DNA of 64,000 bases, taken from the NCBI RefSeq assembly GCF_009193185.1, contig NZ_VUKF01000011.1, positions 1 to 64,000 on the forward strand, read 5' to 3'. Source of the stretch: Georgenia thermotolerans. GTDB lineage: Bacteria; Actinomycetota; Actinomycetes; Actinomycetales; Actinomycetaceae. The notes beneath the pieces were generated by a model. It had not been told where the DNA came from. It was given only the letters and a program-made list of their open reading frames with translations, and ran no database searches. Positions 2,646 to 60,246 of this stretch are shown here, one piece after another (the stretch's first letter is position 1; each line of letters starts with the position of its first letter). Made by a program: the position numbers and the translations under genes.

Positions 2646-3557
2646 TCACCAGAACGCGCGCACCGCGATGGCGTCGGCGAAGTTGTCCACGGCACCCGGG
2701 GTGGTGGACAGGTACAGCGAGGCGTCCACGAGGGAGACCTCCATGACGCTCATCGACCCGTTGGGCCCCTCGACGACGTCGATGCGGCAGAACGTCAGCT
2801 GCTCGTCGCGGCCCAGGCGGCTCTTGATGTAGGAGTGGATCGCGCCCCGGACCTCCTCGCCCAGGCGCCACTCGGCGTCGGTCGCCTGCCGGGCGCGGGC
2901 CCTCTCGTGCGGGACCTCCCCGGGCTGGTACGGGCCGTGGAGCATGGCCTCCTTCTCCACGGCGTGGGAGACGAGGCCGTTCATGTAGATCAGCGCCGTC
3001 TCGCCGCGCTTGTCCACCGACTCCAGGTAGCGCTGCACCATGACGCTGCGGCCCTGGGCGAGCAGCTCCGCCGCGTGGTTGATGGCCGACATGCGCGAGT
3101 AGCCGTCCACCGCGGTGTAGCGCCCGGCGTCCTGCGCGCCGGAGGAGATGGCGGGCTTGACCACGAAGTCGCCGCCGGCCGGGAACCGGGTGTGCAGCTG
3201 GTGCTTGCTGAGCTTCTGCTCCGGCTCGAGCCAGAGCGTGGGGATCATCGGCATGCCGCGGTGGGCCAGCTCGATCATGTAGTGCTTGTCGGTGTTCCAC
3301 CGCAGCACGTCGGGGTGGTTGACGATCTTCGGCACCGACTCGGCCCACCGGAGGAACTCCTCGCGGTGGCTGGCGTAGTCGTGCACCGAGCGCAGGACGA
3401 CGAGTCCGGCGGCGGACCAGTCGACGTCCGGGTCGTTCCAGACGGCGATGCGGGGTTCGATGCCGCGCGCGGCGAGGGCGTCGGGCAGAGCGGCGTCGTC
3501 CTCGTCGAGGTTCGGCAGCGCTGCACAGGTGGCGAGGGTCACGATGGGCTTGGACAC
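2646..3557 (-). CDS. ATP-grasp domain protein of unknown substrate
   Basis: A 303-residue protein from the GTG at 3557 (VSKPIVTLATCAALP). The N-terminal third is a Rossmann-like pre-ATP-grasp region that reads a two-digit 'date-like' LPNLDEDDAALPDAL and ends in VVLRSVHDYASHREEFLRW. The middle carries NTDKHYMIELAHRGMPMIPT and GGDFVVKPAISSGAQDAGRY, the ATP-grasp lysine and glycine loop. The C-terminus has LTFCRIDVV and SVMEVSLVDASLYL, which hold the metal-binding Asp and Glu. This resembles RimK/glutathione-synthetase-like ligases, so ATP-dependent ligation of a carboxylate to an amine is expected, but no substrate can be assigned. It is monocistronic and convergent with tRNA-His. A longer ORF to 3782 runs into low-complexity upstream sequence and is not preferred. 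Confidence 0.75.
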   Translation of the reverse strand: MSKPIVTLATCAALPNLDEDDAALPDALAARGIEPRIAVWNDPDVDWSAAGLVVLRSVHDYASHREEFLRWAESVPKIVNHPDVLRWNTDKHYMIELAHRGMPMIPTLWLEPEQKLSKHQLHTRFPAGGDFVVKPAISSGAQDAGRYTAVDGYSRMSAINHAAELLAQGRSVMVQRYLESVDKRGETALIYMNGLVSHAVEKEAMLHGPYQPGEVPHERARARQATDAEWRLGEEVRGAIHSYIKSRLGRDEQLTFCRIDVVEGPNGSMSVMEVSLVDASLYLSTTPGAVDNFADAIAVRAFW

Positions 3558-52906: not shown

Positions 52907-52976
52907 GAGCAGCGTCTCTCCACCGGGGCGCCCGCCCGTGTGGCGGGCGCCCGAAACGTCCCGGTACTCTCGACGG

Positions 52977-53116
52977 CGGAGGGGAGTATTCCCACTCGGT
53001 GGCAGCCGTCAGCACAGCGGGTGATGACGTCCGCTCGGCGCCACCAGTCCCACGGCCGATGGGCCGCGCGGGGCGGAAGAGACCTCCGGTACCTGATCGA
53101 CCCGACGTACCGGAGG
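52977..53116 (+). promoter_or_regulatory. yybP-ykoY (Mn2+) riboswitch controlling terC
   Basis: The 5' segment GGAGGGGAGTA (52978-52988) and the 3' segment GAGACCTCC (53079-53087) match the conserved ends of the yybP-ykoY aptamer. The P1 stem CGGAGG (52977-52982) pairs with CCTCCG (53083-53088). The same 3' strand lies in CCTCCGGTAC (53083-53092), which pairs perfectly with GTACCGGAGG (53107-53116), the terC ribosome binding site. The two pairings are mutually exclusive, so ligand-stabilised P1 would free the ribosome binding site. Mn2+ is the known ligand of the class, and TerC genes are common targets. Confidence 0.78.
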
Positions 53117-53121
53117 ATCTG

Positions 53122-54162
53122 TTGGACGTTTCCGCGCTCGCCTGGATCGTGCTCGGCGGCATCATCGTCGCGATGATCGCCGTCGACCTCATGGGACACG
53201 TGCGCAAGCCGCACGCGCCCAGCCTCAAGGAGGCGACCTGGTGGTCGCTCGCCTACATCGCCATGGCCGTCGTGTTCGGCTTCATCGTCTGGGCCGCCTG
53301 GGGCTCGGGCTACGCCGGGGAGTACTTCGCCGGCTACGTCACCGAGAAGAGCCTCTCGGTGGACAACCTGTTCGTCTTCGTCATCATCATGGCGGCGTTC
53401 AAGGTCCCGCGGGAGCACCAGCAGAAGGTGCTCATGTGGGGCATCATCATGGCCCTGGTCATGCGCGGCGTCTTCATCGCCGTCGGCGCGGCGGTCATCA
53501 GCGAGTTCGCCTGGGTCTTCTACCTCTTCGGCGCGTTCCTCATCTACACCGCCTACGCCCAGGCCAGGCAGGGCGTCGAGAAGCCCGAGCACCACAACGC
53601 GGACGAGTATCACGAGAACGCCCTGGTGCGCGGCGTGCGCCGCATCTTCCCCGTCACCGACGGCTACGAGGGCGGCAAGCTCTTCCACCGCGAGGACGGC
53701 AAGCGGTACCTCACGCCGCTGCTCATCACCATCCTCGCCATCGGCACCGCCGACCTGATGTTCGCCGTCGACTCCATCCCGGCGATCTTCGGCCTCACCC
53801 AGGAGCCGTACCTGGTCTTCGCCGCGAACGCGTTCTCGCTGCTCGGCCTGCGTCAGCTGTACTTCCTCATCGACGGCCTGCTCGACCGGCTCGTCTACCT
53901 CCACTACGGCCTCGCCGCGATCCTCGGCTTCATCGGGGTCAAGCTCGTCATCCACGCCCTGCACGAGAACGAGGTGCCGTTCATCAACGGCGGCGAGCCC
54001 TGGCACGGGCTGCCCGAGCCGACCATCGCCGTCTCGCTGGGCTGGATCGTCGGCGTCCTGGCGGTGACGGTCGTGGCGAGCATCTGGAAGAACAAGAAGG
54101 ACGCCCGGCTCGCGGCCTCTAGCGCCACGGGAGCCCAGGAGGTCGAGCACGCCGAGCGCTGA
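53122..54162 (+). CDS. TerC family integral membrane protein
   Basis: A 346-residue membrane protein. I chose the TTG at 53122, 5 bases after the GGAGG (53112-53116) that the riboswitch hides; the CTG before it is too close. About nine TM segments are visible. TerC motifs are WSLAYIAMAVVFGFIVWAAWG, ITEKSLSVDNLFVFVIIMAAF-like (TEKSLSVDNLFVFVIIMAAFKVP), RGVFIAVGAAVI, and TADLMFAVDSIPAIFGLTQEPYLVFAANAFSLLGLRQLYFLIDGLL. The two conserved Asp (SVDN, AVDS) lie in the metal path. TerC relatives export Mn2+ (E. coli Alx, B. subtilis MeeF/MeeY). Mn2+ handling fits the riboswitch. Confidence 0.93.
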   Translation: MDVSALAWIVLGGIIVAMIAVDLMGHVRKPHAPSLKEATWWSLAYIAMAVVFGFIVWAAWGSGYAGEYFAGYVTEKSLSVDNLFVFVIIMAAFKVPREHQQKVLMWGIIMALVMRGVFIAVGAAVISEFAWVFYLFGAFLIYTAYAQARQGVEKPEHHNADEYHENALVRGVRRIFPVTDGYEGGKLFHREDGKRYLTPLLITILAIGTADLMFAVDSIPAIFGLTQEPYLVFAANAFSLLGLRQLYFLIDGLLDRLVYLHYGLAAILGFIGVKLVIHALHENEVPFINGGEPWHGLPEPTIAVSLGWIVGVLAVTVVASIWKNKKDARLAASSATGAQEVEHAER

Positions 54163-59878: not shown

Positions 59879-60246
59879 TGGTGGAGATGGCGGGAATCGA
59901 ACCCGCGTCCGACGGCGTGATTTCAGGGCTTCTCCGGGTGCAGTCTGCTGACGATTTTCTCGGCCCCAGCGATCACGCAGACATGTCGCTGACGGGCCCA
60001 GTCACCTAAAAGTCCCCGTAACCCCGATGACGAAGGCTACGAGCAGTGGCTCTCTAGATGACGCCAGGAACCGGGGCGAGAGCTACCTCGGGCTGACGGA
60101 GTTCGGAACTCGCTCAGGCGGCGAGGGCGAACTCGGTGCGCTTGGAATCGGCACCTATTGGTTTGCAGAGAGCGTTGACGAGATGACTCTGCATCCTCGA
60201 CCCGCTTCTCCTGAAACGACGACCATCGTCGAAACCGATCATCCCC
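59879..60246 (-). ncRNA. ssrA: Transfer-messenger RNA (tmRNA)
   Basis: Read on the minus strand, the 5' end GGGGATG (60246-60240) pairs with CATCTCC before the encoded CCA (59879-59881), and GGCGGGAATCGAACCCGCG in the plus sequence is the T-arm. The tag reading frame at 60152-60114 encodes ADSKRTEFALAA and a stop, a typical actinobacterial proteolysis tag ending in ALAA. The length (368 nt) is normal. With SmpB (gene at 63061) it rescues stalled ribosomes and targets incomplete proteins to Clp proteases, tying it functionally to clpS in this window. Confidence 0.95.

Follow-up and report, generated by a model that had tools for sequence, protein, structure and literature searches.

A probable yybP-ykoY-type manganese riboswitch in the leader of an actinobacterial terC gene

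The terC gene and its leader

We analysed the leader of a terC/alx gene in a window of 64,000 nucleotides from Georgenia thermotolerans (contig NZ_VUKF01000011.1). The gene lies on the forward strand at 53122-54162, with a TTG start codon, 346 codons extending to 54159, and a stop codon at 54160-54162. Its product matches PF03741 (E 1.3e-54) and scores 391.4 bits against the NCBIfam model TIGR03718 (R_switched_Alx), whose cut-off is 246.4. The TerC of Georgenia ruanii JCM 15130 (locus L062) is 94% identical to the window protein.

The leader elements are likewise on the forward strand. P1.1, a consensus helix of the aligned leaders, is formed by CGGAGG at 52977-52982 and CCTCCG at 53083-53088. 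The L1 sequence (GGGGAGTA in the DNA, GGGGAGUA in the RNA) occupies 52981-52988 and has its first two G in common with P1.1. It is followed by the 5' strand of P1.2, UUCC at 52989-52992, whose partner is located at 53075-53078, and by the P3 arm with its loop L3 (52998-53045), in which CGUCA stands at 53007-53011. A variable region at 53046-53074 takes the place of P4; its length and sequence differ among relatives, and a local hairpin is predicted there. The 3' strands of P1.2 and P1.1 lie together at 53075-53088 (GGAA-GAGA-CCUCCG) and include AGACC at 53080-53084.

The shared strand CCUCCGGUAC (53083-53092) has two possible partners, the P1 5' strand and the ribosome site. The ribosome-site arm of the predicted OFF hairpin, GUACCGGAGG (53107-53116), contains the Shine-Dalgarno sequence GGAGG at 53112-53116. 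When the pairs were indexed in the window, the helix between CCTCCGGTAC (53083-53092) and GTACCGGAGG (53107-53116) proved exact, with 10 perfect base pairs. An earlier note, made from the letters of this DNA, had described the P1 strands, this hairpin, the buried ribosome site and the TTG start, and all of them are present where it placed them. Further parts of the aptamer, namely the CGUCA loop, the variable region and the P1.2 and P3 helices, go beyond its description. The hairpin alone is little proof of a switch, since the window is GC-rich and contains many perfect inverted repeats of 10 bp: they have 97 start positions, many overlapping, against a mean of 13 in 20 first-order simulations. 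The fold of the whole leader gives a z of -1.92 relative to shuffled sequences, with 7 of 200 shuffles folding as well.

A possible -10 promoter element, TACTCT, is found at 52963-52968 and starts 18 nt before GGGGAGTA. A TANNNT hexamer starting 30 to 14 nt upstream of GGGGAGTA is present in 61 of 111 leaders, compared with a mean of 10.7 and a maximum of 19 in 200 shuffles; in 51 leaders it starts at -19 to -16, and TACTCT is the window copy. From the position of this element, the RNA would start near the foot of P1. Scanning by consensus gave no complete sigma-70 promoter. Nor did a scan between aptamer and gene give an intrinsic terminator, and no U-run follows the hairpin. The aligned start codon in 61 leaders, the window included, is ATG in 27, GTG in 16 and TTG in 11, while seven alignments begin inside the gene; L062, the nearest relative, uses GTG. 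With TTG spread in this way among the leaders, the idea that it adds a layer of control finds no support. Elsewhere in the window, a tmRNA gene is located at 59879-60246 on the reverse strand (RF00023, 159.9 bits).

Aptamer conservation and distribution

Among 69 terC loci, window included, 61 carry GGGAGTA and AGACC at a suitable spacing before the gene; the pattern is absent from the other eight (L026, L054, L059, L061, L068, L070, L071 and L072). It is also present in 16 of 20 further stretches (L073-L092). From the 61 motif-bearing leaders we chose 28 by hand for spread, with the window as one row, and aligned them (alignment A1). GGGGAGTA, CGTCA and AGACCT (AGACCU in the RNA) are invariant in all 28. 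The invariance of the leaders at GGGAGTA and AGACC is partly selected because these motifs were used to choose them; CGTCA played no selecting role.

The helices of the aptamer are supported by covariation. Compensatory double changes occur in at least one of the 28 sequences at 18 of the 25 predicted pairs, and RNAalifold, given no input structure, returned P1.1, P1.2, P3.1 and P3.2. In P1.2, three of the four pairs show double changes, in 8, 10 and 2 of the 28 sequences. Covariation also supports P3. P1.1 is weakly supported in this alignment, where two of its five pairs show double changes, one pair in 1 sequence and the other in 2, and better supported across 110 leaders, where position 4 covaries between the strands as G-C in 89 and A-U in 14. 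The window aptamer is well beyond chance.

We built a covariance model, R1, from the 28 actinobacterial terC leaders, with E. coli excluded. The window leader, itself one of the rows used for training, scores 90.5 bits with R1 (E 6.3e-20 in the 64 kb). Another terC leader of the same genome (G000:C105:102818-102945; L073, L096) scores 85.9 bits and has the same 10-bp hairpin over its ribosome site; it was not used for training, although the closely similar L035 leader of G. ruanii was. R1 also matches the alx leader of E. coli, with 45 bits and an E of 6e-10 in 6 kb, which shows homology to that leader; the E. coli mntP leader was not found by R1. The elements of the metal core, L1 (GGGGAGUA together with AGACC) and CGUCA of L3, are present in the window, and all three are also found in alx. 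A53011, within CGUCA, is the probable counterpart of A41 of the Lactococcus lactis riboswitch. A41 is reported to contact Mn (PMC9190785).

Matches to R1 extend to metal-transport genes other than terC. Behind 29 R1 loci of other genomes, which are the better-scoring matches and not a random sample, tblastn identified TerC in 18 and a P-type cation ATPase in 7, and the training rows include no ATPase leader. The window riboswitch and its relatives thus stand upstream of Mn-homeostasis genes, TerC/Alx here and TerC or P-type ATPases elsewhere. These metal-transport genes, together with the alx match, lend R1 independent support. At L121 (G203, about 1501-2948), an R1 match precedes a gene for a Na/Ca-exchanger family protein (by Pfam). 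At L125 (G128, about 1501-2830), a match with all three strands changed precedes a gene for an M50, site-2-protease-like peptidase with a CBS domain (by Pfam), which is an unexpected target. Neither tblastn nor a further look recognised a match for the gene behind L106, and the L110 sequence runs out at the edge of its contig. Overall, the CGUCA loop, the covarying pairs, the alx match and the R_switched_Alx protein family agree with the earlier note in placing a riboswitch of the yybP-ykoY class before a terC gene.

Two further RNA observations were made at these loci. Eight Geodermatophilus and Blastococcus loci (L042, L043, L044, L048, L049, L050, L051 and L057) carry the riboswitch twice, the second copy lying behind the first terC gene, at about 2880-3450, and ahead of another gene. 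Near the terC gene of a relative, L009 carries a guanidine-III riboswitch at 3072-3136 on the reverse strand (RF01763, 70.9 bits).

The Rfam model of the class behaves differently from R1. A search with RF00080 had been put forward in the earlier note as a check, with the lack of a hit as one part of a refutation, and cmscan with Rfam 15 reports no match to it in the window, either at the gathering score or at E <= 10. At the gathering score, RF00080 is also absent from 20 loci of relatives and 20 loci of the phylum search; the Ruania relative L037 has a sub-threshold match of 28.8 bits, with an E of 1.3e-6 in 171 bases. The missing match is weak evidence against the class because the E. coli leaders also did badly: in alx (L093 871-1006) the model reports none at E <= 1e-3, and mntP (L094 962-1058) reaches 41.6, short of the cut-off of 45. 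In a whole-genome control, 3 of 14 genomes were matched (E. coli, B. subtilis and C. vibrioides), two of these three above the cut-off. The RF00080 model of Rfam 15, with 177 positions, may by now be too narrow. With the more stringent filters applied to large genome sets, RF00080 matched 10 of 296 actinobacterial genomes at E <= 1e-3, one of them above the cut-off, and R1 matched 67 of 296 at the same threshold, the window's own genome included. The usual annotation route therefore misses much of this branch, and metal regulation of actinobacterial TerC and ATPase genes is probably under-annotated.

Competing pairings of the shared strand

In the window, CCUCCG at 53083-53088 both closes P1 and begins the left arm of the ribosome-site hairpin. 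We assessed this arrangement in a set of 114 leaders, 111 of them distinct and 110 with enough downstream sequence. A switch helix was counted where the shared strand pairs, G-U allowed, with a stretch 3-13 nt before any start triplet. Controls either dealt the strands among leaders or shuffled the regions, with 40 trials each. Switch helices of 5 or more pairs are found in 91 of 110 leaders, against means of 88 with dealt strands and 38.5 with shuffled regions; taken by itself, the count at this limit is barely informative on whether strands pair within their own leader. Longer helices are more discriminating. At least 8 pairs are formed in 61 of 110 leaders, against means of 42.5 for dealt strands (maximum 49) and 3.4 for shuffled regions (maximum 8), and at least 10 pairs in 27 of 110, against 12.4 (maximum 19) and 0.5 (maximum 3). 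The mean best helix is 7.88 pairs, compared with 7.19 with swapped strands (sd 0.10, maximum 7.47 of 200). Strands thus pair better within their own leader than with other leaders, even though CCUCCGG is common to most of them.

A mutually exclusive switch predicts that a change in the shared strand will be matched in both of its alternative partners. An earlier tally of eight leaders with such joint changes was set aside as partly circular, the ribosome-site arm having been chosen because it pairs. We replaced it with a pairing-free table in which only GRAGG and a start triplet define the ribosome site. The table covers 86 of 110 leaders and omits the 24 that have no GRAGG site, among them four of the first eight joint-change leaders (L019, L020, L108 and L124). 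Across the P1 strand, the shared strand and the ribosome site, position 4 reads G-C-G in 73 leaders, A-U-A in 5, A-U-G in 3, G-U-G in 3, C-U-G in 1 and G-C-A in 1. A site A accompanies a shared-strand U in 5 of 12 leaders and occurs in 1 of the other 74 (Fisher p 1.3e-4); it accompanies a P1 A in 5 of 8 and occurs in 1 of the other 78 (p 9.4e-6), both statistics ignoring relatedness.

All three strands have changed jointly in 5 of the 86 leaders. One is from Miniimonas (L052), and the others represent four different families (L104, L106, L115 and L125). The genes behind them encode TerC (L052), an ATPase (L104 and L115) and the M50 protease-like protein (L125). L106 is a doubtful case because no known gene was recognised behind it. 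Two findings count against the switch: three leaders with A-U in P1 retain G in the site, and 24 of 110 lack a GRAGG site altogether. The five joint changes are suggestive of mutually exclusive pairing and not conclusive. As dealt strands already reach 88 of 110 at 5 pairs, support for the switch rests on the longer helices together with the pairing-free table. The competing pairings that the earlier note had claimed are exact in the window, and in the wider leader set the 61 long helices and five joint changes speak for them. Mutually exclusive pairing is accordingly supported, though not proven, and less strongly than the aptamer.

Energetics, proposed mechanism and known systems

Predicted fold energies for the window leader, which leave out tertiary docking and metal, are -86.0 kcal/mol for the OFF form, -81.2 for OFF with P1.2 and P3 also held, and -70.5 for the ON form. 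OFF is thus predicted to lie below ON by 10.7 or 15.5 kcal/mol, depending on the constraints. The same relationship is seen in the 91 leaders that were selected because they have a switch helix of 5 pairs or more, the 19 of 110 with no such helix being left out: ON minus OFF is positive in 89 of them, with a median of 9.0 kcal/mol, and in 79 the OFF form comes to within 0.5 kcal/mol of the minimum. The gap probably exceeds what metal binding could pay at equilibrium. Given the energies of the window and of the 91 leaders, a simple two-state equilibrium is doubtful. The energies suggest that the RNA would rest in the OFF form and that metal would have to act in the interval between completion of the aptamer and synthesis of the ribosome-site arm. 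With the ligand-free form predicted to be 11-15 kcal/mol more stable, folding during transcription would probably decide the outcome.

The mechanism that we propose is as follows. The RNA probably starts just before P1. As the aptamer emerges, Mn2+ would dock L1 onto L3, so that P1 closes and captures the strand at 53083-53088. Closure of P1 would leave the ribosome site free, and TerC would be made. When metal is lacking, the 53083-53088 strand would instead pair into the 10-bp hairpin with 53107-53116, burying GGAGG and switching translation off. Of related riboswitches, that of L. lactis is reported to have its P1.1 stabilised by Mn2+ in competition with a terminator hairpin (PMC9190785), and that of E. 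coli mntP is reported to act on the ribosome site (PMC11647493). We consider it highly likely that the window carries a yybP-ykoY (manganese) riboswitch in a TerC/Alx-family leader, with Mn2+ turning translation on and the choice made during transcription. Within this reading, we infer the ligand and the timing of the choice, and the competing structures are what point to ON as the direction, which the earlier note had predicted as well.

Three other explanations were weighed. That the leader is a mere GC-rich inverted repeat and not a regulated RNA is barely credible. Perfect repeats are common in the window and the fold is just modestly better than its shuffles, as this explanation would have it, but the 90.5-bit R1 score, the match to alx, and the conservation and compensatory changes of the helices argue strongly against it, and we rejected a chance hairpin on these grounds. 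It is also improbable, though less so, that the fold has been kept while its specificity drifted to another metal or ligand. The assignment of Mn2+ to the actinobacterial branch is a comparative one, and the Na/Ca-exchanger-like and site-2-protease-like proteins, at one locus each, would suit such a drift. Against this stand the main targets, TerC and P-type ATPases, which fit Mn homeostasis, and CGUCA, invariant in 28 leaders and including the adenosine that we match to the Mn-contacting A41.

The remaining explanation, somewhat less improbable and still unlikely, accepts the yybP-ykoY aptamer and has it act mainly on transcription, for example through Rho-dependent termination in the untranslated leader, with translation secondary. 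A leader free of ribosomes could expose Rho sites, and riboswitch and Rho are reported to work together in E. coli mntP (PMC11647493). However, the scan for an intrinsic terminator between aptamer and gene was negative, the P1 3' strand forms long helices with candidate ribosome sites more often than swapped strands do, and helices onto the ribosome site occur before ATPase genes too. We therefore prefer the translational manganese switch.

Earlier work has established the class of riboswitch, the ligand that the class senses, its occurrence upstream of terC/alx and ON regulation acting at the ribosome site, and the biology of the window switch is as expected for the yybP-ykoY family. The window offers a case in which the design of a translational Mn switch can be read from the sequence. 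Among titles and abstracts of the open-licence literature, we found no actinobacterial description of this platform; reports on C. glutamicum and C. pseudotuberculosis do exist there. What may be new, and we offer it tentatively, is a large actinobacterial Mn-riboswitch branch that Rfam largely misses, that is translational with an OFF hairpin so stable that the choice is kinetic, and that has unexpected targets (site-2-protease-like and Na/Ca-exchanger-like).

Several known systems resemble the window leader in part. NCBIfam TIGR03718 is a protein family whose name suggests riboswitch control, the RNA being outside the model. The Corynebacterium glutamicum cg2157 terC leader is another yybP-ykoY leader of an actinobacterial terC gene, a likeness drawn from its published description; it is reported to have scored 49.13 with the Rfam of 2013 and to have been observed in RNA-seq (PMC3890552). 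As with RF00080, the window has GGGGAGUA and AGACC ends, a CGUCA loop and helices P1.1, P1.2 and P3, and such RNAs stand before TerC and P-type ATPase genes. In contrast to RF00080, the window has no Rfam 15 match, our consensus has no P2 between P1 and P3, and the window uses a ribosome-site hairpin and not an intrinsic terminator. The E. coli alx leader shares the core and P3 design, the R1 match and a downstream TerC-family gene. It differs in having about 80 nt between AGACC and the start codon, whereas the window has a short hairpin, built on the 3' strand of P1, directly before the gene.
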